Of a stretch of DNA of 44,893 nucleotides, positions 13,089 through 43,881 are shown piece after piece. The notes beneath the pieces were generated by a model. The model was not told the origin of the DNA. It was given only the letters and a program-made list of their open reading frames with translations, and did not search any database. Each line of letters starts with the position of its first letter. Within the stretch, counting starts at the first letter, position 1. Source of the stretch: Nitrospinota bacterium (GTDB lineage: Bacteria > Nitrospinota_A > UBA7883 > JACRGQ01); NCBI GenBank assembly GCA_016212275.1, contig JACRGR010000071.1, forward strand, positions 1 to 44,893. The letters are read 5' to 3'. The position numbers and the translations under genes were made by a program.

Positions 13089-13092
<4 letters not shown>
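10513..13092 (-). CDS. glnD: [protein-PII] uridylyltransferase / uridylyl-removing enzyme GlnD
   Basis: Senses glutamine and modifies the PII signal protein, controlling nitrogen assimilation. The 859-residue protein shows the full four-part layout. A nucleotidyltransferase domain carries GGYGRSELNPYSDIDLLFLY near residue 67, and a PII-UTase linker domain follows. The HD hydrolase domain contains LLLHDIGKGDGHHAEEE. Two C-terminal ACT domains hold KNRIGLLFHIVGTLSARNID and SRDRIGLLYDITRALSSLG. Its ATG overlaps the stop of the upstream protease by 4 nt (ATGA), so it is the third gene of a menG-protease-glnD operon. No PII or ammonium transporter gene is nearby. Confidence 0.97.
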
Positions 13093-14188
<1,096 letters not shown>

Positions 14189-14192
<4 letters not shown>

Positions 14193-14878
14193 GGCTTGCG
14201 CGCGGTGATGAGGTCGCTTATCCCGAACGTAAGCGGCGTCACTTTCACTTCCGTGAACCCCGCATTCTCGAAAATGGTTTTCAGTTTGTGGCGGTCCGGG
14301 AATTTCATCACCGAGGCGGGGAGGTACGAGTACGCCTCGCGGTGGCCGGAAATAATACGCCCCGCGAGTGGCAGGAGTTTCGTGAAGTAGAAAAGGTACA
14401 GCGCTTTGACCAGCAGGTTTGAAGGCGTGGTAAATTCCAAAATGGCGATGCGTCCGCCGGGCTTGAGGATGCGGCATATCTCTTTCAATCCCGCGTCGAG
14501 GTCGGCGAAATTGCGGATGCCGTACGCGCAGGCGGCCCCTTCAAACAGGTTGCCGGCGAATGGCAGTTTCAGCGCGTCGCCCCGGCACAGCCGGATCGGT
14601 TTGCCGGAAATTTTTGTTTTTCCCACGATGAGCATTTCGCGGCTGAAGTCCAGGCCCACTATTTTTACTCCGTTCCCCTGGCGGGCGATCTCGCTCGCCA
14701 CGTCGCAGGTGCCGGTGGCCACGTCGAGATACAGGCCGTTTGCGGGGGCCAGTTCGCGTATGGCCTGCGTGCGCCAGCGTTTGTCTATCCCCATGCTCAA
14801 CAGGCGGTTGAGCAGGTCGTAACGCGGGGCGATGTCCGAGAACATGCGCTCTATCTTCGCGGGGTCTTTTTCCACCAT
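14189..14878 (-). CDS. ubiE: demethylmenaquinone / ubiquinone methyltransferase (MenG/UbiE)
   Basis: SAM-dependent C-methyltransferase in the last steps of menaquinone or ubiquinone synthesis. The protein begins MVEKDPAKIERMFSDIAPRYD, with SAM motif I LDVATGTCDVA, motif GLDFSREML and the post-motif ICRILKPGGRIAILEF. Family signature ends (AYSYLPASVMKFPD and FGISDLI) are present. I chose the ATG at 14878 (229 residues) because it matches the family N terminus. The frame stays open to 15001, but that extension is not family-like and would cover the divergent rplV promoter. Whether it acts on MK or UQ cannot be told from the sequence. First gene of the leftward operon with the protease and glnD. 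Confidence 0.93.
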
Positions 14879-33359: not shown

Positions 33360-33887
33360 TTACGGTTTTTGAGCAGTTTCCGTCTTTATTTCTTCCATCT
33401 GCGCGAAGAGGCGCATGCCGCGATACGCGATGATTTGCCGCTCCCACTGCTGGTAGCCGGGATAGACCAGTTTTATTTTGTGTTTCCCCTCCTTCAACGG
33501 CAGTTGTATCGGCGTGCTTCCCGAATAAAATCCGTCAATCACCACCTCGGCATTGGCGGGTTTGGATTCAAAAAGCACGAACGCTTCGGCGGGCGGGGCC
33601 GGTTTCACGGCGGCTTTCGCGGTTTTTGCTTCATGGCTGGCGGGCATTGCGGCCACCGCATTTTTCTTGGCCAGCGGTTGCACCGTTTGCGCGTTGTTGA
33701 CTTTGGCGGGTTTTTTCACCACGCTTTTGGCTTTTGCAGGTTTCTTCGAGGTCTTTTTCGCGCCGGTTTTTTTGGCCGCCGCCTTTTTCGTTTTTTCCGT
33801 TTCATCGCGCCCATCGGCCATCACGGGCGCGGATAGCGCGAAGACAGCGGCCAGCAAAAGCGCGAAGAGGCGAACGGTGATTTTCAT
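33360..33887 (-). CDS. exported PEGA-domain protein
   Basis: A 175-residue protein with a Sec signal peptide (cleavage probably after VMA, residue 24). A long Ala/Lys/Pro-rich linker (about 30-100, repeated AKK and KPAK) follows. Its C-terminal PEGA domain reads VLFESKPANAEVVIDGFYSG, then STPIQLPLKEGKHKIKLVYP and GYQQWERQI. PEGA domains are small beta-sandwiches found in surface and envelope proteins of bacteria; their ligands are poorly known. The basic linker could bind peptidoglycan or other anionic polymers. It is the last gene of a leftward trio with two FlgO-like lipoproteins, nine bases from its neighbour. Confidence 0.87.
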   Translation of the reverse strand: MKITVRLFALLLAAVFALSAPVMADGRDETEKTKKAAAKKTGAKKTSKKPAKAKSVVKKPAKVNNAQTVQPLAKKNAVAAMPASHEAKTAKAAVKPAPPAEAFVLFESKPANAEVVIDGFYSGSTPIQLPLKEGKHKIKLVYPGYQQWERQIIAYRGMRLFAQMEEIKTETAQKP

Positions 33888-33896
33888 TCCATGCTC

Positions 33897-34448
33897 CTAG
33901 AAGGGCGAAGTCCCTTTGATCAGGTTTTCTATTTCTTCGGTCATCGCCACCTCGAAACTGACGGTGGAAAGCACCTGCGGGGAACGCACGTCAATAAGCC
34001 GCGCATTGATGATGACCGACTTTTGCGTGGCGACGTAGGTGCCGGCCAGCACCGCGCGGGCGTTCGCGCCATCCACCATTTCCGCCGCTTCGCGCGTGAG
34101 GATCAGTTCGCCCACGTCTTTTTTGATGAGCAGGTCCTGCGCGCGGCGCACTTCGATGACGTGGAACCCTTGGCGGCTCAGGTCGTCTATCAGTTTTTCG
34201 GCGATCATCCGCCCGAAGACCGAGGTCTTGGCGAGGTCATTGAGGTCAACGAACGTGCTGACGATGATCGGCAATCCCTCCGGGTGTTGCGGGCGCAGGT
34301 TCTGGTTGATCTCGGACGCCATGAAGCGGGTGCCGAAGCGGTCCTCTTTCTCGGCGGTGGTCACGTTCTTCGGCGCCGAGGAGGGCAGGCTGATGCACGA
34401 CGCCGCCATCAACGCGACTACCGCTGTCGTCAGCAGTTTCTTGTTCAT
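33897..34448 (-). CDS. FlgO-domain lipoprotein (copy 1)
   Basis: A 183-residue lipoprotein with lipobox MAASC (Cys18). Residues 50-175 match the FlgO domain: VSTFVDLNDLAKTSVFGRMI, GFHVIEVRRAQDLL, LTREAAEMVDGANARAVLAG and INARLIDVRSPQVLST. In Vibrio FlgO is an outer-membrane protein linked to the flagellum, but the domain is widespread in non-flagellar lipoproteins and structurally related to the CsgG/TolB-N type. The ATG at 34448 overlaps the stop of copy 2 (ATGA) and has AAGGGTGG upstream. No flagellar genes are nearby. Confidence 0.85.
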   Translation of the reverse strand: MNKKLLTTAVVALMAASCISLPSSAPKNVTTAEKEDRFGTRFMASEINQNLRPQHPEGLPIIVSTFVDLNDLAKTSVFGRMIAEKLIDDLSRQGFHVIEVRRAQDLLIKKDVGELILTREAAEMVDGANARAVLAGTYVATQKSVIINARLIDVRSPQVLSTVSFEVAMTEEIENLIKGTSPF

Positions 34449-35206
34449 TTTTTCCACCCTTCATATTGGCCGTCGGCGCGGTACACTCGTTCCAAGGCAT
34501 TGTCGAAAAGGTCCTTCACCAGCGCATCGTCCTTCTCAAACGTCATTTCCATGTCGGCGGCGGCGATCACCTGCTGGGTGCCGGTGGATACCAGCCGGGC
34601 ATGCACCATCACGGTATTGCCCGATTTTTTGTAAGTGCCCAGCAGAACGGAATCGGCTTTCCATGCGTTCATCATCTCGCCCGTCTCCTCCGTAAGCGCG
34701 TGGGCGCCCACGTTCGGTTGTTGCAGAAGGCGTTTCGCCGCGCGGTGTTCCACCACTTTGAATCCCAGATCGCTCATGTGCCCCATAAGGTTTTCGGTGA
34801 CATATCTGCCAAACGTATTCGAGCGGTTCAGCCGATCCATGTCCACGAAGGTTGCCACCGCCATCGTGGGGTTTTGACCGGTCACTTTGCGGGCCAATGA
34901 GCGGGAGAGCCGGTCAAGATTCATGGTCAACGCTTTTCCCGAAGATATTTCTCCGGAAGCCATTTCACGGATATATATCCCCACTTCTTTCCGGACATAG
35001 GATGGTCCCGTTTCCGCTTCTGTCCGCGTGCCGGAAGTTTGTCCGTCGGCGGTGGCGGCGGTTTCTTTCAATTTCCCCTCTTGCGGGGTGGACGCTTCGG
35101 GTGCGGGAGCGGAACCGCCTCCCATCAGCGATTTGCATGAAACCGCCAAGAGCACCAGTCCGGCAAGCGCTAGAAACCGTGCTTTTTGTTTACCGCTTTT
35201 ACCCAA
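34445..35206 (-). CDS. FlgO-domain lipoprotein (copy 2)
   Basis: A 253-residue lipoprotein with lipobox AVSC (Cys24) and a polar linker of about 60 residues. A FlgO domain follows (VATFVDMDRLNRSNTFGRYV, GFKVVEHRAAKRLL, LTEETGEMMNAWKADSVLLG, VHARLVSTGTQQVIAAADM). It is clearly homologous to copy 1, so the two arose by duplication. I chose the TTG at 35206 because AGGAGGAG lies directly upstream and it gives a normal signal peptide. The frame is open further upstream to 35266. It leads the leftward trio and is divergent from the nine-gene envelope operon. Confidence 0.83.
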   Translation of the reverse strand: MGKSGKQKARFLALAGLVLLAVSCKSLMGGGSAPAPEASTPQEGKLKETAATADGQTSGTRTEAETGPSYVRKEVGIYIREMASGEISSGKALTMNLDRLSRSLARKVTGQNPTMAVATFVDMDRLNRSNTFGRYVTENLMGHMSDLGFKVVEHRAAKRLLQQPNVGAHALTEETGEMMNAWKADSVLLGTYKKSGNTVMVHARLVSTGTQQVIAAADMEMTFEKDDALVKDLFDNALERVYRADGQYEGWKK

Positions 35207-35425
35207 AACTCCTCCTGCCAAGGCGGGATAATCCCCGCGTATGGGTATTGAATCGGCATCTCCCAAAAATTACTTTACCCTTCTTTTTTACTTCGGCTTT
35301 GATTCTGCCAGCTGGTAATAGTTTATTAATATTGACATTCGGGGAGTCACTCGATACATTGACCAGATGAACATAGGGGATGAGTTGAAGCCAACTGGCA
35401 TGAGGGGTTTTCCACGAGGTGATGA
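35207..35425. other. divergent control region of the envelope island
   Basis: The gap separates the leftward FlgO-PEGA trio from the rightward nine-gene unit. It holds the rightward promoter at 35332-35360 and a small perfect stem GCGGG/CCCGC near 35224-35239 in the leftward leader. A clear leftward promoter was not found. Confidence 0.6.
35332..35360 (+). promoter_or_regulatory. sigma70-type promoter of the nine-gene envelope operon
   Basis: Perfect TTGACA (35332-35337) and TACATT (35355-35360) are spaced by 17 bases. The transcript would start near 35367, about 60 bases before the first gene. No other strong promoter is seen until 43881, where the unit ends. Confidence 0.8.
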
Positions 35426-36196
35426 ATGACCTTGGGATGGCGGTTGCCAAAGCGGTTTTTCAAAAAAACCATGTCCATCCTGCTTTCGTGCCTGGTGGTG
35501 CTTGAGACGGCGTGTGCTTCAGCCCCACCCCCACAGCCGGTAGTTTACCATCCCCCTGTCCAGTCCTTACCCGCCAAACAGCGGCCCCCGCTTGTTTTGA
35601 TGCCGTTACGCACCAGTGGCGAGGTGGCGCATACCTCCAAAGAGGTATTCGAGACCTCCTTGAGCGAGGAACTGGGCAAGTATTACACCGTTTACGCGGG
35701 CAAACGGGTTGCGGCGAAGGTGGACGAAGTGTTCGCGCGCCGCTCCGAAGAGGCCAAGGAAGGTGAGCAGTGCGATGACACGAAATGTCTCCGGGACGTG
35801 GCAAACGAGTTCCAGGCCGAATATGTGGCGATCTCCAGCATCAGCCACCAGGCGGGGGGCTACCTGTTGTCGCTGAATATACAGGACATCGTGGAAGACA
35901 AGATGGTGTACTCGAAGTCGGAGCCGTGCAAAGGGTGCGACGAGTACGAAATAGTGGATAAGCTGAAAACCCTGGCGCAGGGGAGCGGGTTGTTTGGCTC
36001 CGTGGCCACCGCGCCAGCGGTGCAACCCGCGCCCCCGCCGGTGCAGGAAGAAAGCAATTGGTGGAAATGGGCGCTGGGCATCCTTATCGTTGGCGGGGTT
36101 GCGGCCGCGGCCGCCGGAGGCGCTGGCTCCTCTTCGTCCTCCTCAAGCGGTGGTGGATCGAGCAGTTCCACCGGAAATATCAGCGTAAGTTGGTAG
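35426..36196 (+). CDS. TolB-N/CsgG-like exported protein with TM and Gly/Ser tail
   Basis: A 256-residue protein. An N-terminal hydrophobic segment ends LETAC (Cys30), a marginal lipobox. Residues 55-190 resemble the TolB N-terminal/CsgG-type domain (PLVLMPL, SLSEELGKYYTVYAGKRV, CLRDVANEFQAEYVAISSIS, GGYLLSLNIQDI). Two cysteine pairs stand out: Cys116/Cys121 and Cys168/Cys171. A second hydrophobic stretch (about 211-231, WWKWALGILIVGGVAAAAAG) is followed by a Gly/Ser run and a final ISVSW. The 39931 gene is a shorter paralogue with the same cysteine spacing. Function is unknown; the fold suggests an envelope assembly or secretion accessory. It heads the operon, six bases before the kelch gene. 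Confidence 0.78.
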   Translation: MTLGWRLPKRFFKKTMSILLSCLVVLETACASAPPPQPVVYHPPVQSLPAKQRPPLVLMPLRTSGEVAHTSKEVFETSLSEELGKYYTVYAGKRVAAKVDEVFARRSEEAKEGEQCDDTKCLRDVANEFQAEYVAISSISHQAGGYLLSLNIQDIVEDKMVYSKSEPCKGCDEYEIVDKLKTLAQGSGLFGSVATAPAVQPAPPPVQEESNWWKWALGILIVGGVAAAAAGGAGSSSSSSSGGGSSSSTGNISVSW

Positions 36197-36201
36197 CGGA
36201 T

Positions 36202-37575
36202 ATGAATAGGCATAAGAACGGTTTGCCAGTCCATTTATTCAGGCGATATGCCTTTGCCGCGGTTATGTGCGCGCTTGCCACGTTGGTCGTTTCATGCGGG
36301 TCGCAGTCGCCGTCGAACGGAGAGACCGGCTCCATTGCCATTGGCATTCAGGTGGGGAACAGTTTTTCCGCCAAACCCGACGCCTCGGCAGGCGGGGAAC
36401 GATGGGCGGTGGATTGCGCCGCCACCGGCATTTCCACCATTTCCGCCTCGGTCACGAATTCTTCCGGCACGTCGGTGAAGACCGGCGGGCCGTGGACCTG
36501 CACCACCGGTAGCGGCACCATAAGCGCGGTGCCGACCGGGACGAATTACACGGTGACATTAAGCGGGAAAAACAGTTCCGGCGCCACCATTTTCACCGGC
36601 ACGAAAACGGGCGTCACCGTCACTTCGGGGGCAACCACCAGTGCGGGCGCCGTCACGCTTTCCGGCGCGGCATGGACCGCCAAGACCTCGATGGGGACTG
36701 CCCGGCACAGGCTTGGGGTTGTCTCCCCCTCTTGCACCAGTTGCACCACCGGAAGCGATGGCGAGCCGATCTACGCGATAGGCGGCCTTACCGACACTAG
36801 CGGGAACGTATCAACGAACAAGGTGGAAATGTTTTCCTCGAATATTTGGACCAGCAAAACCTCGCTGACCACCTCCCGCGGCGGGCTGGCGGTTGCGGCG
36901 GTTCCCGGCACCACCAGTTACGGGAAAATTTACGCCATTGGCGGATGGAACGGCACCAGCATCCTGAATACGGTGGAGGAGTATGATCCCTCCGCCAACA
37001 CATGGACGGCGAAAACGAATATGACCACGGCGCGGGACAATTTCGCCGCCTGCGTGGTGAGCGGCATCGTGTACGCCATCGGGGGGTGGAGCGGCTCCGC
37101 CTATCTCAGCTCGGTGGAGGCGTATAATCCGACCACCAACACCTGGAGCACAAAGACTTCCATGTCGGTGGCGCGCGAAACGCTGACCTGTAGCGTGGTG
37201 AACGGGAAGATATACGCCATCGGCGGCGACAGTTCCACCAACTTCACCCTTACCACCGTTGAAGAATACAATCCCTCGACGAATACCTGGACCACAAAGA
37301 CCAGCATGCCCACCAGCCGGCGCTACCTGACCAGCACCGCGGTGAATAACAAGATATATGTCATCGGCGGCGCGGACAGCACCAACACGGTGTCAAAAGT
37401 GGTGGAGGTTTACGATCCGGCCACCGATACATGGACGACCGGCGTTTCGCTCACCTTGGCGCGAAGCTCGCTAGGGGCCGCCGCCATCACCGTTTCCAAT
37501 GTGGCAAAGATATACTCCATTGGAGGATGGAGCGGCAGTGCGGGCGTGGCGGAAGCGAATGAGTTCATCCCGTAA
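36202..37575 (+). CDS. kelch-repeat lipoprotein
   Basis: A 457-residue lipoprotein (lipobox LVVSC, Cys about 33). Residues 40-155 are a Ser/Thr/Gly-rich beta region of the fibronectin or Big type (VTLSGKNSSGATIFTGTKTG). Residues 160-457 hold six kelch repeats, each with the core IYAIGG or IYVIGG (from residue 190 to 437) and a W near WTAKT or WTTKT. Six blades would close a beta-propeller, usually a protein- or sugar-binding surface. It belongs to the operon with spacing of five bases. The start has only a weak ribosome site (GCGGA), so it is probably translated by coupling. Confidence 0.88.
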   Translation: MNRHKNGLPVHLFRRYAFAAVMCALATLVVSCGSQSPSNGETGSIAIGIQVGNSFSAKPDASAGGERWAVDCAATGISTISASVTNSSGTSVKTGGPWTCTTGSGTISAVPTGTNYTVTLSGKNSSGATIFTGTKTGVTVTSGATTSAGAVTLSGAAWTAKTSMGTARHRLGVVSPSCTSCTTGSDGEPIYAIGGLTDTSGNVSTNKVEMFSSNIWTSKTSLTTSRGGLAVAAVPGTTSYGKIYAIGGWNGTSILNTVEEYDPSANTWTAKTNMTTARDNFAACVVSGIVYAIGGWSGSAYLSSVEAYNPTTNTWSTKTSMSVARETLTCSVVNGKIYAIGGDSSTNFTLTTVEEYNPSTNTWTTKTSMPTSRRYLTSTAVNNKIYVIGGADSTNTVSKVVEVYDPATDTWTTGVSLTLARSSLGAAAITVSNVAKIYSIGGWSGSAGVAEANEFIP

Positions 37576-37613
37576 TCCTCTAGCCGAAGTTTCCGTGGTA
37601 TAAATATCCCCGT

Positions 37614-38702
37614 ATGTGTCCGCGACGAGTCCTGATGGTTGCGGCGGTGGCCGTCCTGTTATATTTCCCAATTCCCGCCGATGCTTTGTTCGGCGACAGT
37701 TGCGATTTCCTGCCGGAAGCTCCGAAACCCGGGTGGGTGAATAACCCCGCATGGTCCGGCGCTCCGGGCCTCTACTATGGCGCGGGGGAGGCGGACAAGC
37801 GGAAAACGGAACAGGAGCAAAAGGAACTTTCGCGTAAAAAGGCGCTGGAATCGCTGTCGCAGAAGATACGGGTGCAGGTGCAAAGCGTGCTCACCCACGA
37901 GGTCAAGAGCAGTTCCACGGGCACCCGCGAGAAATTCGAGCAGGTGGTGGAGCTGAGATCGGAAAAACGCGTGGATGAGGTATTGCGCGGAGTGAAAGAC
38001 GAGGACGTGTGGCTGGACCGCGAGAAATGCGTCCTGCACACGCTGGTGAGCATTTCGCGGGAATCGGTGGAGTCCACCGGCAAATTCAGCGCGATGGCGC
38101 GCCTGTTTGAAGAGGTGAAAAAACGGTCGGCCCCCCGCCGGGTACAGCTTGACCTTGCCACGAACGCCTTGGCTCTGCTGGAGGAAATAGATTTCCGCTA
38201 CGTCCCCGAAGAGGCGGGCAAAGAGCACTTCCGGCGGGAACTGGGCAAGGAACTGGAGCGGGTGAACGCGGAAATGAAGGAGAACGCCTCACGGACGGTG
38301 GTGGCCGTTCTCACATCGGAAAATGCTCCCCCCGCGCTGGCGGAAAAGGTGGGCGACCGCATACGCGGGATCGTTCCCCGATCCGAGCGGATGATGGGTG
38401 TGTGCGAACCGCTAGAGACGTGCCTGCGTTCGGCGGGGGACGACAGCTATGGAAGATTGGTGACGTTGAAAGTCGGCAAATCGGAAGAGCAAAGCGGCTT
38501 GGGAGGGTACAAGGGGACCTTAAGGGTGGAAGCCACCCAATACGACCTGAAAAGCGGCACGGTTCTGCAAGGGCCGGTTGCCGCCAGCGCGCAGGTGATC
38601 TCGTGGGAGCCGGATAAACTCGATTGGGAAAGGGCTCTTAACAAGATAGTGGAAAGCGGGAAACTATCGTTTTTAACCAATGGCAAGGAGGCGGGCAAGT
38701 GA
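37614..38702 (+). CDS. LPP20-like exported protein
   Basis: A 362-residue exported protein with an N-terminal hydrophobic signal (VAAVAVLLYFPIPADA). The segment KPGWVNNPAWSGAPGLYYGA then GEADKRKTEQEQKELSRKKA, ALESLSQKIRVQVQSVLTHE and FEQVVELRSEKRVDEVLRG matches the LPP20 lipoprotein domain (about residues 38-150). A charged helical middle and a beta-rich C-terminal part follow (about 225-350), with DSYGRLVTLKVGKSEEQ. LPP20 domains often accompany FlgO and CsgG-like proteins, as here. No lipobox is evident. An ATG at 37635 is an alternative start; neither has a clear ribosome site. Confidence 0.78.
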   Translation: MCPRRVLMVAAVAVLLYFPIPADALFGDSCDFLPEAPKPGWVNNPAWSGAPGLYYGAGEADKRKTEQEQKELSRKKALESLSQKIRVQVQSVLTHEVKSSSTGTREKFEQVVELRSEKRVDEVLRGVKDEDVWLDREKCVLHTLVSISRESVESTGKFSAMARLFEEVKKRSAPRRVQLDLATNALALLEEIDFRYVPEEAGKEHFRRELGKELERVNAEMKENASRTVVAVLTSENAPPALAEKVGDRIRGIVPRSERMMGVCEPLETCLRSAGDDSYGRLVTLKVGKSEEQSGLGGYKGTLRVEATQYDLKSGTVLQGPVAASAQVISWEPDKLDWERALNKIVESGKLSFLTNGKEAGK

Positions 38703-39190
38703 AAAGGGGCCTGATAGGTTTGGTTACGCTGTTTTTTTTGGCGGCGCCCTCGTTTGCGGCGCGGGAAGGATTGAGCGAGGGGATGGACGCCCCCAATTTC
38801 GTTGGGGAGATGTTGGACGGCAAATATTACAGTTTGGCGCGCGACGGGCGGGGGCCGAAGGTGTTGAATTTTTTTTGGGTGAAGTGCGTGCCCTGCAAGA
38901 AAGAATTGCCGGAACTTGCCGAACTGGAAAAAAAACATCCCGGCGTGAAATTCATTTCGGTGCATACGGAGACCACGCCTGAAAAAGAGGTGAAGGCGTT
39001 TTTGGCCTCGCTGGCGGGACACCCGCGCATAGTGGTGATGTCCACCCGGAAGGTGATGGAGTCGTACCGGTTCAACCAACTGCCGCATACCGTCATTCTG
39101 GACGCGGATAACCGGGTGCGGTTCGTTATCTCCGGGTACACGGATGAAAATATGAGAAAAGTGGAAAGCGCCATCCGGGGCATCGAGTAG
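38699..39190 (+). CDS. TlpA/ResA-type periplasmic thioredoxin
   Basis: A 163-residue exported thioredoxin-fold protein. Signal peptide ends SFAA near residue 21. The redox motif is FFWVKCVPCKKELPEL (Cys63, Cys66), with the cis-Pro region in FNQLPHTVILDADNRV. TlpA-like proteins reduce disulfides in periplasmic partners, including apocytochrome c. The neighbour is a c-type cytochrome fusion and two operon proteins carry paired cysteines, so those are plausible substrates. The GTG start overlaps the previous stop (GTGA) and is preceded by AAGGAGG. Confidence 0.9.
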   Translation: MKRGLIGLVTLFFLAAPSFAAREGLSEGMDAPNFVGEMLDGKYYSLARDGRGPKVLNFFWVKCVPCKKELPELAELEKKHPGVKFISVHTETTPEKEVKAFLASLAGHPRIVVMSTRKVMESYRFNQLPHTVILDADNRVRFVISGYTDENMRKVESAIRGIE

Positions 39191-39193
39191 GTC

Positions 39194-39934
39194 ATGTGGT
39201 GGCGGGGGTTCCGTGCCGCCGTTTTGCTTTTGATCGCGGGGCTGTCCGCTTGCCTGCATACTACGGTGCCCTCGCCCGCTGGGCCGAAAGGAATATTATC
39301 GTTCACCAACTCTTTCCACGACTTTGGCCAAGTGACGGAAGGGGACATCATCAAGCACACGTTTGAATTCACCAATGCCGGCAAGGGGTCGTTGCGGATG
39401 GTGCGGACGGAGAGCGATTGCGGATGCACCACCACGGAGGCGGCCTTCCGCGAATATGCGCCGGGCGAACGGGGCGCGCTGGAAGTGACGATAGATACGC
39501 GCGGCAAGCACGGAATCACGGTGAAATCCGTGAAGGTCTTTTTGGAGAACGCCGAGGAGAACATCGTGGAACTCACGCTCACCGCCCGGCTTGTGCCGCC
39601 GCCCCACCCAAAGGTGGAGAACCGCGCCCATGCGACCACCGATGTGAAATGCAGGACCTGCCACCTGGAATCGGGCGTGGGAATGCAAGGGGCGTTTTTG
39701 TATCACCGCGTGTGCGCCCAGTGCCACGGGCGCAAAGGGGCGGGCGCCGGTGCGCGTGCGTTGAACGACGTTCAATGGCTGGGCGGGGTGGACGACGCAT
39801 TTTTACGCGAGGTGACGGCGAAAGGCCAGCCGGAGAAGGGGATGCCCCCCTTCGTGGAAGGGGTTACGCCGCCGTTGACCGGGGAACAGATGGATTCCCT
39901 TATTGAATACATACGCTCATGGGGGAAACAATGA
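39194..39934 (+). CDS. DUF1573 domain fused to c-type cytochrome, lipoprotein
   Basis: A 246-residue lipoprotein (lipobox LSAC, Cys20). Residues 30-133 form an immunoglobulin-like DUF1573 domain (FHDFGQVTEGDIIKHTFEFT, then ESDCGCTT and YAPGERGALEVTIDTRGKHG). Residues 145-246 carry two CxxCH heme motifs: CRTCH at 153-157 and CAQCH at 174-178. A candidate axial methionine lies in KGMPPF. Two motifs 20 residues apart suggest either diheme binding or one structural pair. Fusion of DUF1573 to a cytochrome is uncommon to my knowledge. It lies between a thioredoxin and a CsgG-like protein and may be an envelope electron carrier or redox sensor. Confidence 0.87.
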   Translation: MWWRGFRAAVLLLIAGLSACLHTTVPSPAGPKGILSFTNSFHDFGQVTEGDIIKHTFEFTNAGKGSLRMVRTESDCGCTTTEAAFREYAPGERGALEVTIDTRGKHGITVKSVKVFLENAEENIVELTLTARLVPPPHPKVENRAHATTDVKCRTCHLESGVGMQGAFLYHRVCAQCHGRKGAGAGARALNDVQWLGGVDDAFLREVTAKGQPEKGMPPFVEGVTPPLTGEQMDSLIEYIRSWGKQ

Positions 39935-40401
39935 AACGGTTTGCGTGGTGCGCGGTTCTGTTCATATTGCTGGGCGCGGGTTCCGCTTTTGCCGGGGACA
40001 AAGAAAAGATCGTGCTCCTGCCGGTTTCCGGTCCGCTGACGGCGGCGGAGAAGGGGCAGTTGGAAAAAAAGCTGGCCGCCGGATTGGGCAAGCGATATGC
40101 GGTCATTGCCGGGCCACAGGTGGAGGAAGCCTTGCGGAAGGCACTGCAGGAGGAAAATCAAAAGGCGATATGCGATCTGGAAGGGTGCTATGTGAAAATA
40201 GCGGGCCAGTTCAAGGCTGAGCTTATTGCCGCCTTTTTGCTGGCACCCCGGATGGACGGAAGCATTAACGTGACGTTCCGGGTGATGAACGTGGTTGAAA
40301 ACAGGGAAGTGTATTCCAGGAGCGCCGACTGCGCGGCCTGCACGGTGTCCAAACTCATCGGCTTGGGCGAAAGCCTCCTGCAGGGGATGGACAAAAAGTA
40401 A
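39931..40401 (+). CDS. TolB-N/CsgG-like exported protein, short paralogue
   Basis: A 156-residue protein with a Sec signal peptide (FILLGAGSAFAG, cleavage near residue 21). The mature part resembles residues 55-190 of the protein at 35426: KIVLLPVSGPL, LGKRYAVIAGPQVEEAL, CYVKIAGQFKAELIAAFLL and VYSRSADCAAC. Cysteine pairs Cys81/Cys86 and Cys134/Cys137 keep exactly the C-x4-C and C-x2-C spacing of that paralogue. It lacks the second membrane segment and Gly/Ser tail. Start overlaps the previous stop (ATGA). Function unknown. Confidence 0.8.
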   Translation: MKRFAWCAVLFILLGAGSAFAGDKEKIVLLPVSGPLTAAEKGQLEKKLAAGLGKRYAVIAGPQVEEALRKALQEENQKAICDLEGCYVKIAGQFKAELIAAFLLAPRMDGSINVTFRVMNVVENREVYSRSADCAACTVSKLIGLGESLLQGMDKK

Positions 40402-40446
40402 AACGCGCCCGGCGGCATTTCGATGGCGGATTCGTATGGAGAGCGG

Positions 40447-42270
40447 ATGAATGAACGGGTGAAGGTCGCGGCGGTGGTCCTTTTCAGCATTATTTCCGCA
40501 GTGGCGCTGGTGCAAAGCAATTTCGCCCGGACGACCGATCTGGCCTTCTATGATCTCCTCCTGAATAAGGTTCCTGGGAAAAATACGCCGGTCAATGACA
40601 TCGCCATTATAGGGATTGACGACGAATCGCTAAAAAAAGCGGATACGCCGCTCATCCTGTGGGTGGGCTTTTTCGCAAAGGCGGTGGACGCCTTGCGCGA
40701 GGCGGGAGCCAAAGCGGTGGTGTTCGACATCATTCCCGCCATTTCGCTTGACCGGTTCGCGCCACAATTGGATCAGGCGTTTTTAAAGGCGATGCGGGAC
40801 GCGAAGGATGCTGGCATGCCGGTCTATTTGGGATTCAAAACCGGCGAAATCGGCGGGCAACTGCCGCACCCGAAGTTCGCGTTTATGGCGAGCGGGCTGG
40901 GCTTCACCAACCTCTATCCCGACGCCGATGGAAAGATGCGACGCCAGAACACATGGTTCGAGGGCCAGGACGGTCAGGTGATCCCTTCGCTTTCGATGGT
41001 GGCCGCAACCGCATACCGGGGCATCCCGCTCGAACAAGAGGCCATCTGCCGCCAACTGGGCATCTGCGGCGAGGGGATGAAGCCCGCGCCCGTGCTGATT
41101 GATTACCGCATCAGCCAGGAGAAGATAGCGGTACATTCCATCTATAACGTGCTCATCAAGGCGCAGAACGGGGATAGTCTGAAGGAAGATTTCGGCGGCA
41201 AGCTGGTGTTCATCGGCCCGATGTCGGAAAAACTGCCGGACAACCACCGCGTTCCCCTCAACCCGCGCGAACCGGGGAACCAGTACACCCCCGGTCTGGT
41301 GATCCAGGCGCAGACCACCGCCACATTGCTCGCGGGCCAGAAACTCACCCCACTGCCGAATCGGCAAAAGGTGGCCATTACGTTGGTGCTTGCGGTGGTC
41401 TCGCTCCTGCTGATGTTCAAGGTGTCGCCGTTGCGGTCTTCCCTGTTGGTGATGATACTGGCTGGTGTGGTCGGCGCGGGGGTTATGGCCGCCTTCGCGG
41501 GGTATGCGGTCCTGCCGCTATCCCCTGTCATTTACGGCCTTATCCTCCCCGCGGGTATCGCGCGCTCCTATCTCTACGTCGCCGAGTACAAACAAATGAG
41601 CGTTCTAAAAAAATATTTCGGTTCCTATGTGAGCAGGGAAGTGATGAAGGACATTCTGAAAAACCCCGAAAAGGTGAATTTCGACGGGAGCTTGGTGGAG
41701 ATCACCATCATGTTCACCGACATACGGAACTTCACCACGCTCTCGGAAAAACTCCAGCCGCCGGAGGTTACGCGCGGGTTGAATACTTACCTTTCCGCCA
41801 TGACCACCTGCATCGTCGCAAGCGGTGGGTATGTGAACCGCTATTTGGGGGACGGCATACTGGCGTTGTATGGCGCGCCAAGCCCTTTGCCGAACAACGG
41901 CGCGCGTGAGGCGGTGCGGGGCGGTTTGGACATGCTCAAGCGGCTGGAGGAACTGAACAAGGAAGAGCTTTTTCCCGGCGTCAAAGAACTGAAGATCGGG
42001 ATCGGTATCCACACTGGCAAGGCGATCGTCGGCAATGTTGGCTGTTTTGAGAAAATGGACTACACTGTTGTGGGAGACAGCGCGAACCTCGCCTCGCGCA
42101 TCGAGGGGCTTACGAAGCAATATGGCGTGGCGATGTTGGTGAGCGAAAGCACCTACGCGCTGGTGAAAGACGTTGTGGAAGCCGATTATGTGGATAGCGT
42201 GACCGTGAAGGGACGCGAACATCCTACCCCTGTTTATCATATAACCTCGTTGAAGGAGGAAACGAAATGA
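40447..42270 (+). CDS. CHASE2-domain class III nucleotide cyclase, inner membrane
   Basis: A 607-residue sensor cyclase. It has one N-terminal membrane segment, then a periplasmic CHASE2 domain (about 25-310, DLAFYDLLLNKVPGKNTPVN, IAIIGIDDESLKK) and three membrane segments (about 315-390). The cytoplasmic cyclase domain follows from residue 415. Metal-binding Asp425 (MFTDIRNF) and Asp469 (YLGDG) are present, as are the transition-state Asn and Arg in GDSANLASR and the Asp of MDYTVVGD. The usual adenine-specifying Lys four residues before Asp469 is Arg465, so substrate choice is uncertain. The ATG at 40447 has GGAG upstream. Stop overlaps the FecR-like gene. Confidence 0.9.
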   Translation: MNERVKVAAVVLFSIISAVALVQSNFARTTDLAFYDLLLNKVPGKNTPVNDIAIIGIDDESLKKADTPLILWVGFFAKAVDALREAGAKAVVFDIIPAISLDRFAPQLDQAFLKAMRDAKDAGMPVYLGFKTGEIGGQLPHPKFAFMASGLGFTNLYPDADGKMRRQNTWFEGQDGQVIPSLSMVAATAYRGIPLEQEAICRQLGICGEGMKPAPVLIDYRISQEKIAVHSIYNVLIKAQNGDSLKEDFGGKLVFIGPMSEKLPDNHRVPLNPREPGNQYTPGLVIQAQTTATLLAGQKLTPLPNRQKVAITLVLAVVSLLLMFKVSPLRSSLLVMILAGVVGAGVMAAFAGYAVLPLSPVIYGLILPAGIARSYLYVAEYKQMSVLKKYFGSYVSREVMKDILKNPEKVNFDGSLVEITIMFTDIRNFTTLSEKLQPPEVTRGLNTYLSAMTTCIVASGGYVNRYLGDGILALYGAPSPLPNNGAREAVRGGLDMLKRLEELNKEELFPGVKELKIGIGIHTGKAIVGNVGCFEKMDYTVVGDSANLASRIEGLTKQYGVAMLVSESTYALVKDVVEADYVDSVTVKGREHPTPVYHITSLKEETK

Positions 42271-42905
42271 GAAACATTTTCGCGTTCGCTGTTTTTGCGC
42301 TGGTTCTTTCCGGATCCGCCCATGCGCGGGACTTTGGCGTGGTGATGGACTTGTCCGGCAAGGCGGCTCTCGCCGGGAAGAAGGGCGCCGCCCTCGACTT
42401 GGGGAAGAACATCGTGGTGGGAGATGTAATTTCGCTTAAGGAAAAAGCATCGGTGACGGTGGTGAGTTACCAAGGTTGCGAAGAGTGGCGCATCGGCGGT
42501 CCCGCATCGGTGACGTTCACCGCGGAAAAGCCGGAACCGGAAAAAGGATCGAAAGGAACGGTTGCCAAGGGCCGCAAGCTACCGGTGTGTTACAAGCCCG
42601 CGGACGTGCAGGCATCCTCCCATGAGCAGGGGGGGCTGGTGCTGATGAACAAGGCGGTGCCGCAGGACCAGATGGAAGGTCCCGCGCCGGTGGAAATGTC
42701 CGGCACGGCGGAGAACGAGGAGATCACGAAAATGCGGCAGGCCTTCAGCGGCGGGAAAGCGGACAATGCGGCGCTGATGACGCTGGTGATGTATGACCTG
42801 CAACGGCGCGACATGGAAAGCGCGCGCCCCTATTACGCGGAACTGAAAAGGCGCGCGCCGGCCTCGGCGTTCGTGAAACGGATGGGCGCTGAATTCGGCC
42901 TGTAA
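42267..42905 (+). CDS. FecR-like exported protein
   Basis: A 212-residue protein with a signal peptide (AFAVFALVLSGSAHA, cleavage after residue 20). Residues 22-90 follow the pattern of FecR-type periplasmic domains (VVMDLSGKAALAGKKGAALD, KNIVVGDVISLKEKASVTVV, EEWRIGGPASVTF). The C-terminal part (about 150-212) is helical and TPR-like. Genes of this kind often sit beside CHASE2 proteins, and here the start overlaps the cyclase stop (ATGA). A ligand-sensing or scaffold role for the cyclase is inference. Confidence 0.75.
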   Translation: MRNIFAFAVFALVLSGSAHARDFGVVMDLSGKAALAGKKGAALDLGKNIVVGDVISLKEKASVTVVSYQGCEEWRIGGPASVTFTAEKPEPEKGSKGTVAKGRKLPVCYKPADVQASSHEQGGLVLMNKAVPQDQMEGPAPVEMSGTAENEEITKMRQAFSGGKADNAALMTLVMYDLQRRDMESARPYYAELKRRAPASAFVKRMGAEFGL

Positions 42906-42933
42906 GGCTTCGGGAAAACAAGGAGGAAAGGCG

Positions 42934-43881
42934 ATGCGGAAATTATTGGTTGCGGCAATTGTGGTGGCGATGTGCGCCGGGCGCGTTTTCGCCCTGGAAC
43001 CCGCGGACGTCTACCGGCAAAAATCCCCGGCGGTGGTGCTGATATTCGCCAAGGTGGATAGCAACTCGCGCAAGGGAGGTTCCGGCTTTTTCATCGCCGG
43101 CAACGGACAAGTGCTTACCAACGCGCATGTGATAACCGGCAACGACGGGCAGGCGCTACAGGAAATACAAGTGTTCATCAAGCCGCCGAAGGTGACCGGC
43201 GATTTTAAAGAAGACCTGCAAGACCGCCATCCCGCGAAGGTGGTGAAGTTCGACCGGGCGTTGGACGTGGCGCTTTTGCAGGTGGAAGACCTGGCCTCCT
43301 CGCCAATGCAAGTGTCGTTCGCCAATTCGGACAACGTGGAAGTGGGGCAGAAAGTGGTGGCGATAGGGCACCCTGAACAGGGGGGGTTGTGGACCCTGAC
43401 CTCCGGGACCATCAGTTCGCGCATCAAGAATATCTCGCGCATCGAGGGGAAAGACATGTTCCAGAGCGACGCCAGCATCAATCACGGCAATTCCGGCGGG
43501 CCGCTGTTCGACACGGACGGCTTGGTGGTGGGGATGAACACCAGCACCGCCCGCATGTCGTCGGACGGCACCGCGATAGTGGGTATCAATTTCGCCCTGC
43601 AATCAAACGTGATAATGAAATGGCTCAACCAGAATGAGGTAAAGGTGGCCGCCGCGGTCCCGCCGAAATCGGCGCAGGCGGAAGCGGCCCGGACGGAAAC
43701 GCCGAAAGCGGCGCCGAAAGAAGCGTTGGAAAAACCCTCGGCCCCCGGCGCGGCCGCGGAAGGCAAGATACTGACCCCGAAGAATCCGTATGAGAAAGAG
43801 GCCCTGGAAAAGACCATCGCCGAGATGGAAGATGTGATTTTGGAGATGCGCGGCAAGGTTAAAAAGCGGATGGGCAACTGA
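42934..43881 (+). CDS. exported trypsin-like (S1C) serine protease without PDZ
   Basis: A 315-residue periplasmic protease with signal peptide (VVAMCAGRVFA, cleavage near 20) and a trypsin-like core. The catalytic triad is His65 (LTNAHVI), Asp111 (ALDVALLQV) and Ser187 (NHGNSGGPL). No PDZ domain follows. Instead there is a linker rich in Ala, Pro, Lys and Glu (about 225-275) and a C-terminal coiled-coil helix (EKEALEKTIAEMEDVILEMR). It is distinct from the HtrA-like lipoprotein at 13089. As last gene of the envelope operon it may process or police the neighbouring proteins. AGGAGG precedes the ATG. Confidence 0.9.
   Translation: MRKLLVAAIVVAMCAGRVFALEPADVYRQKSPAVVLIFAKVDSNSRKGGSGFFIAGNGQVLTNAHVITGNDGQALQEIQVFIKPPKVTGDFKEDLQDRHPAKVVKFDRALDVALLQVEDLASSPMQVSFANSDNVEVGQKVVAIGHPEQGGLWTLTSGTISSRIKNISRIEGKDMFQSDASINHGNSGGPLFDTDGLVVGMNTSTARMSSDGTAIVGINFALQSNVIMKWLNQNEVKVAAAVPPKSAQAEAARTETPKAAPKEALEKPSAPGAAAEGKILTPKNPYEKEALEKTIAEMEDVILEMRGKVKKRMGN

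Follow-up and report, generated by a model that had tools for sequence, protein, structure and literature searches.

Several of the known proteins in the group formed by PelC, CsgG, GNA1162, LpoB and the TolB N-terminal (TolB-N) domain form outer-membrane rings, and exported proteins with LPP20 and TolB-N-like domains are also found as FlgO, FlgP and FlgT. The Mia40-Erv1-cytochrome c and Dsb-TlpA-CcmG pathways bring together CxxC thioredoxins, CxC proteins, cytochromes c and twin-cysteine substrates, the EAD conflict systems spread one adaptor family across many sensor and effector proteins per genome, and the variable proteins of diversity-generating retroelements (DGRs) in Treponema, Legionella and Thiohalocapsa carry FGE or Lcl_C domains. 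Likenesses to all of these are found in a nine-gene operon of a Nitrospinota bacterium (contig JACRGR010000071.1 of assembly GCA_016212275.1). The 44,893-nt window analysed here is this one entire contig (C54), which belongs to a 2.19-Mb, 82.8%-complete metagenome-assembled genome; the nine open reading frames (ORFs) of the operon, g1 to g9, all lie on the + strand and together span 35426–43881. Full-text searches of open-access PubMed Central for the components yielded no published description of the gene set, in agreement with a preliminary description, made from the sequence alone, which knew of no such system.

The operon joins two modules that are conserved separately from each other, A (g3–g6) and B (g7–g9), and it is almost certainly part of a real conserved system. 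Module A comprises g3 (37614–38702, +), with an LPP20 domain (Pfam, 8.4e-08) and a C-terminal TolB-N-like domain; g4 (38699–39190, +), an exported TlpA/ResA-type thioredoxin with a CVPC motif; g5 (39194–39934, +), a lipoprotein-like fusion of DUF1573 and a dihaem cytochrome c; and g6 (39919–40401, +; alternative start ATG at 39931), a stand-alone TolB-N-like protein with four conserved cysteines. A g5 alignment was scanned against 84,980 species genomes and recovered 13 full-length relatives (47–60% identity), whose hosts are Nitrospinota, Gallionellaceae, other Beta- and Gammaproteobacteria, and Sulfuricurvum. The four module A genes are contiguous at ten loci in Nitrospinota, Pseudomonadota and Campylobacterota, a count that includes the window and a locus (L100) where a contig end cuts the LPP20 gene. 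Other loci are incomplete: two are cut by contig ends (L103 and L107), one lacks an adjacent g6 (L110), and at L105 g5 stands without the other three genes beside it. Within the family of the window organism g3-g4-g5-g6 are adjacent in genomes G004 (at two loci), G007 and G009, and g5-g6 is retained at a contig end in G005. Nitrospinota have the gene order LPP20-TlpA-g5-g6 and the other hosts g5-LPP20-TlpA-g6, so that the linkage is more than block inheritance and outlives reshuffling. In a g5 tree Sulfuricurvum is nested among the Pseudomonadota (support 96/94), which indicates transfer between phyla, and in two pairs of proteobacterial loci, L103/L105 and L107/L110, the flanking genes are alike, which speaks against mis-binning. 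Carriage on plasmids was rejected, as no full-length g5 was present in 72,556 plasmids.

The conserved neighbourhood of DUF1573-cytochrome and short TolB-N-like genes for which the preliminary description proposed a search therefore exists. Its idea of a nine-gene envelope machine survives in part: there is an envelope system with a redox component, and g3–g6 stay together across three phyla, but g7–g9, which lie elsewhere in relatives, show the scattering that it had named as a refutation. Because modules A and B are separate in relatives, we rule out the nine genes as one conserved machine. In G009 a divergent gene that adjoins module A (L056:11360–13105) encodes an LPP20/FlgT_N-like N-terminus, identified by eye, joined to a DUF900 alpha/beta hydrolase.

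The protein g6 and the body of g1 (35426–36196, +) constitute one domain family (hidden Markov model E-value of 2e-43 for g1), which we refer to as the Cys4 TolB-N-like domain. Its four cysteines are arranged as two pairs, CDxxxC and CxxC (C85/C90 and C138/C141 in g6; C116, C121, C168 and C171 in g1); 46 of 50 aligned domains have the full set of four, whose positions rank among the most conserved columns of the 50-row alignment. An AlphaFold2 model of g6 (predicted local distance difference test score, pLDDT, 82) has PelC, GNA1162, TolB, LpoB, FlgT and CsgG as Foldseek relatives, with E-values of 6.8e-07 to PelBC, 2.6e-06 to TolB, and 1e-4 to 1e-7 overall. The TolB-N fold that had been proposed for g6 is thus backed by its model, but no sequence profile supports it. 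Similarly, the earlier designation of g1 as TolB-N/CsgG-like stands insofar as g1 has a domain in common with g6, but the CsgG Pfam family (PF03783) matches none of g1, g3 and g6. The TolB-N-like domain at the C-terminus of g3 had gone unnoticed; it has an invariant cysteine pair of its own (C264/C270), and the AlphaFold2 model of g3 (pLDDT 78) has FlgT, PelC, CsgG and CT253 as Foldseek relatives.

The Cys4 domain is widely shuffled. A Gallionellaceae genome (G105) contains 21 matches to it and a single g5, and at the loci read in this genome the domain is fused to FGE-sulfatase, Lcl_C, Sel1 repeats, Tsp/S41 protease, and DUF2846 or DUF4124; other fusions include PDZ, cytochrome c7 and YfiO-like parts and, by eye, WD40-like repeats in the Nitrospinota genome G008. 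Many fusions with one g5 per genome is what would be expected of an adaptor served by a single, common machinery. We then compared the distribution of the domain with that of module A in two families, using a search profile (A9) with rows from G097, G099, G105 and G103 and none from G098, G100, G102 or G104. Seven of the 100 genomes in the family of G097 have the Cys4 domain, four of them genomes that supplied no row to the profile, and the same seven have g5, which was searched for directly; in the family of G103 (101 genomes, with g5 carriage taken from the 84,980-genome scan) the domain occurs in one genome, G103 itself, which carries module A. Over both families (201 genomes) the domain is present in 8/8 module A carriers and 0/193 non-carriers, a comparison for which there is no simple p-value because the genomes are related. 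We consider it likely that module A serves the Cys4 domains.

The redox components are strongly conserved. The thioredoxin g4 has a TlpA/redoxin Pfam match (3.1e-12), an AhpC-TSA/Redoxin fold, the CxxC motif and an export signal, and its C63 and C66 are invariant in 11 homologues. In g5, which matches DUF1573 (3.6e-21) and cytochrome c (3e-09) and has a lipobox-like motif, we found a CGC motif at residues 76–78 and haem motifs CRTCH and CAQCH, none of which had been remarked on previously; across 14 homologues the DUF1573 CGC, both CxxCH motifs, M217, H138 and H171 do not vary. M217 is likely the axial ligand of the CAQCH haem, and H138 or H171 are candidates for distal haem ligands. DUF1573 with UGC replacing CGC is listed among the selenoproteins in a selenoproteome review, a form that argues for thiol redox activity (PMC13188914).

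The reading that we favour, with a probability of about 0.5, is of a modular envelope adaptor system composed of the Cys4 TolB-N adaptor domain, its client fusions, and a dedicated thiol-haem relay; it draws on the gene linkage, co-occurrence, conserved cysteines and haem motifs, and domain shuffling described above, and on DGR diversification of one client. By analogy with PelC, CsgG and FlgT, the stand-alone and scaffold forms (g6, g3 and g1) would probably make up an oligomeric outer-membrane platform, on which clients would dock via the same TolB-N-like domain. The client parts would be ligand-binding (FGE/Lcl_C of the C-type-lectin fold, and WD40), Sel1 repeat, PDZ, cytochrome or protease. 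A relay modelled on that of Mia40-Erv1-cytochrome c, and running, as we infer, from TlpA (CxxC) to DUF1573 (CGC) to the dihaem cytochrome c, would set the disulfide state of the adaptor. Judging from the motifs, action of such a relay on the adaptor cysteines is plausible, if a little short of an even chance. In the window organism the protease, the FecR-like protein and the CHASE2 cyclase could pass the state of the platform to a cytoplasmic cyclic nucleotide, although such a read-out is doubtful. We offer only tentatively the full picture of a platform that recruits many clients, some of them hypermutated by a retroelement, with a relay that would link the platform's disulfide state with respiration and, in the case of Nitrospinota, also with a cyclic-nucleotide signal.

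Several observations weigh against this adaptor system. The TM-scores of g6 against known TolB-N folds are only about 0.45–0.55, and conserved pairs of cysteines in periplasmic proteins may simply form structural disulfides or bind zinc. Among Nitrospinota, G003 and G008 contain Cys4 domains but lack a full g5, a looser association which implies that the relay is not strictly required. A search for DsbB (PF02600) in seven Nitrospinota genomes (G000, G003, G004, G005, G007, G008 and G009) gave no match, but a missing DsbB is not a general reason for the relay, since eight proteobacterial carriers possess DsbB and have no obvious need for a private one. In addition, g2 is without a TolB-N domain, so that its docking is suggested by gene order alone, and every carrier described here is a metagenome-assembled genome.

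An alternative explanation is that module A is a unit for cytochrome maturation and electron transfer, in which the ResA-like TlpA would maintain in reduced form the g5 cysteines to which haem is attached, and the TolB-N and LPP20 proteins would hold the dihaem cytochrome at the outer membrane, where it would take part in extracellular electron transfer. Among NCBIfam subfamilies g4 is indeed closest to ResA, whose substrate is apocytochrome c; g5 has the two haem motifs of a dihaem cytochrome, one TolB-N fusion at L103 has multihaem cytochrome c domains, and several carriers belong to the Gallionellaceae, which include iron oxidisers. We nonetheless regard this explanation as unlikely, since it leaves unaccounted for the four conserved TolB-N cysteines, the presence of as many as 21 TolB-N fusions, most of which lack haem, and the CGC motif of DUF1573.

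DGRs are associated with two of the TolB-N fusions. At L102 a TolB-N-FGE gene adjoins module A and is followed by genes for bAvd (2.9e-19) and a reverse transcriptase (RT; 9.8e-15); a 119-nt pair of variable and template repeats differs by 20 mismatches, of which 17 fall on adenines of the template, which is a DGR signature and marks the L102 TolB-N-FGE protein as the DGR target. In G008 (L121:4472–7659) bAvd (1.8e-15) and a short RT ORF that has a YMDD motif (2.6e-19) likewise come after a TolB-N-FGE gene; the template repeat could not be found, and this DGR is probably decaying. We saw no RT match in the window's 82.8%-complete genome and no A-biased repeat pair in the window, and on these grounds we discard both g2 as a DGR variable protein and a DGR belonging to the system of the window. 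Nor is a DGR a general feature of the adaptor system, as that of Sulfuricurvum G103 (L188:6467–10485), which consists of an RT, an A-biased repeat pair and a large tail-fibre-like target, is a separate element beside phage-like genes and unlinked to the TolB-N system. In G105 an RT on contig C255 lies beside restriction-like genes, and strong RVT_1 matches elsewhere resemble other retroelements.

The two DGR-linked TolB-N-FGE genes could suggest an immune-like recognition system, in which hypervariable sensors of C-type-lectin or propeller type would be presented by TolB-N fusions and the effectors would be proteases, CHAT-like proteins or cyclases, as in DGR-linked conflict systems but located in the envelope. 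Conflict systems of this type containing FGE, trypsin and CHAT are already known (PMC10907252). Lcl_C and FGE are ligand-binding folds, a CHAT protein adjoins module A at L103, and PADLOC matches g7 and g9 to Pycsar cyclase and protease models. These PADLOC matches, however, reflect general cyclase and trypsin folds, and on this basis assignment to a known defence system was rejected. No RT match is present in the genome of the window, DGRs occur at two carrier loci only, at one of which no template repeat could be detected, and the system is exported rather than cytoplasmic; furthermore, no STAND or MoxR NTPase domain or EAD partner was seen among the Pfam-scanned proteins, which do not include every neighbour. 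An immune-like role is thus quite improbable.

An outer-membrane ring like that of FlgO, FlgP and FlgT, serving motility or surface structures, with structural cysteines and housekeeping redox genes, would be consistent with the LPP20 and TolB-N folds, the Foldseek matches of g3 and g6 to FlgT, and two divergent FlgO genes directly upstream, but it is the least probable explanation, as the FlgO profile (PF17680) matches only those upstream genes and none of g1, g3 and g6, the upstream FlgO proteins are without the four adaptor cysteines, and no flagellar genes were recognised among the module A neighbours read in relatives. The same profiles and neighbours rule out membership of a flagellar FlgOPT or curli system. 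The upstream genes (33363–35266, −) encode two FlgO-family proteins and a PEGA-domain protein.

Module B is outside the core of the adaptor system. It consists of g7 (40423–42270, +), an inner-membrane CHASE2 class III cyclase with its catalytic residues present (Pfam CHASE2, 1.5e-34, and cyclase, 4.8e-23); g8 (42267–42905, +), an exported protein for which the FecR-like label has no profile support, Pfam matches being absent; and g9 (42934–43881, +), an exported trypsin-like (HtrA-type) protease without PDZ (Pfam trypsin, 3.6e-31). The module is found beside LPP20-type proteins in four Nitrospinota genomes. In G007 g7–g9 lie about 12 kb from module A on the same contig and the opposite strand, with one CsgG Pfam match upstream of them; in G008 and G009 g7-g8-g9 follow LPP20-type and other envelope proteins, and in G009 they are on a different contig from module A. 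A g8 query that matches G007, G008 and G009 gave no match in nine non-Nitrospinota carriers of module A. The placement of g7–g9 elsewhere in relatives and the absence of g8 outside Nitrospinota indicate that the cyclase is a lineage-specific attachment. A cysteine pair in CHASE2 (C209/C215) is present in 4/4 module B cyclases and not in other aligned CHASE2 cyclases of the same class, which leaves room for the redox-signalling cyclase of the preliminary description; C71 and C108 of g8 are invariant (4/4). Both pairs could equally be structural disulfides. A second HtrA-type protease in the window (13092–14477, −) has trypsin and PDZ domains and differs in this from the PDZ-less g9.

The remaining features of the operon largely agree with the preliminary description. 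The nine co-directional genes are tightly spaced, with gaps of 5 nt (g1-g2), 38 nt (g2-g3), 3 nt (g4-g5), 21 nt (g6-g7) and 28 nt (g8-g9), 4-nt overlaps of g3/g4 and g7/g8, and an overlap of g5/g6. All eight non-cyclase products have hydrophobic N-termini, as expected from the export proposed for them, and lipobox-like motifs are present on g2 and g5. The kelch, LPP20-like, TlpA, DUF1573-cytochrome c, CHASE2 cyclase and protease labels are each backed by Pfam, which gives no confident family for g1, g6 or g8. A strong promoter, in contrast, is not substantiated: the candidate sigma-70-like site TTGACA-17-TACATT (35332–35360, +; 10/12 consensus match) is suitably placed upstream of g1, but the window has four such sites against 3.5 expected from shuffles, no excess over chance. 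No known RNA elements were found at gathering scores. The product of g2 (36202–37575, +) is a probable lipoprotein (lipobox-like VVSC) with an immunoglobulin-like N-terminal domain, common also to FGE lipoproteins of G004, and a kelch propeller (Pfam kelch, 1.9e-62); it is a candidate sensor or client of the adaptor system. The C-terminal part of g1 (36058–36196) comprises a transmembrane helix, a Gly/Ser linker and a terminal ISVSW. Tails of this kind, ending in V-x-[SG]-W or similar, are also present at L059:542–1255 and L092:14763–16313, and may represent a C-terminal anchor of a new type; the NCBIfam model invert_tail (NF058595) gives 15.6 bits, well under its cut-off of 37.

The individual folds of this system are known, and it is the gene system and the adaptor domain that are new. 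The window system differs from FlgO/FlgP/FlgT in its four cysteines and redox partners and in having no linked flagellar genes, and the g6 family differs from PelC, CsgG, GNA1162, LpoB and TolB, whose fold the g6 model resembles, in its Cys4 motif, many client-domain fusions and lack of a sequence-level match. DGR variable proteins resemble the L102 protein, with its adenine-specific variable repeat, bAvd and RT, but here the variable domain is on a TolB-N adaptor beside a TlpA/DUF1573-cytochrome cassette, and most carriers are without a DGR. The Mia40-Erv1 and Dsb-TlpA-CcmG proteins are unrelated to those described here, where a relay is suggested by motif conservation and gene linkage. If the adaptor reading is true, it would provide a function for DUF1573-cytochrome proteins, and the defined, transferable gene set, its exact co-occurrence with the domain in two families, and the invariant cysteines are open to bench testing. 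The EAD systems are cytoplasmic, whereas the window system is in the envelope, with a haem-thiol cassette and no NTPase seen; it would then be an envelope counterpart of the cytoplasmic adaptor-based recognition systems.

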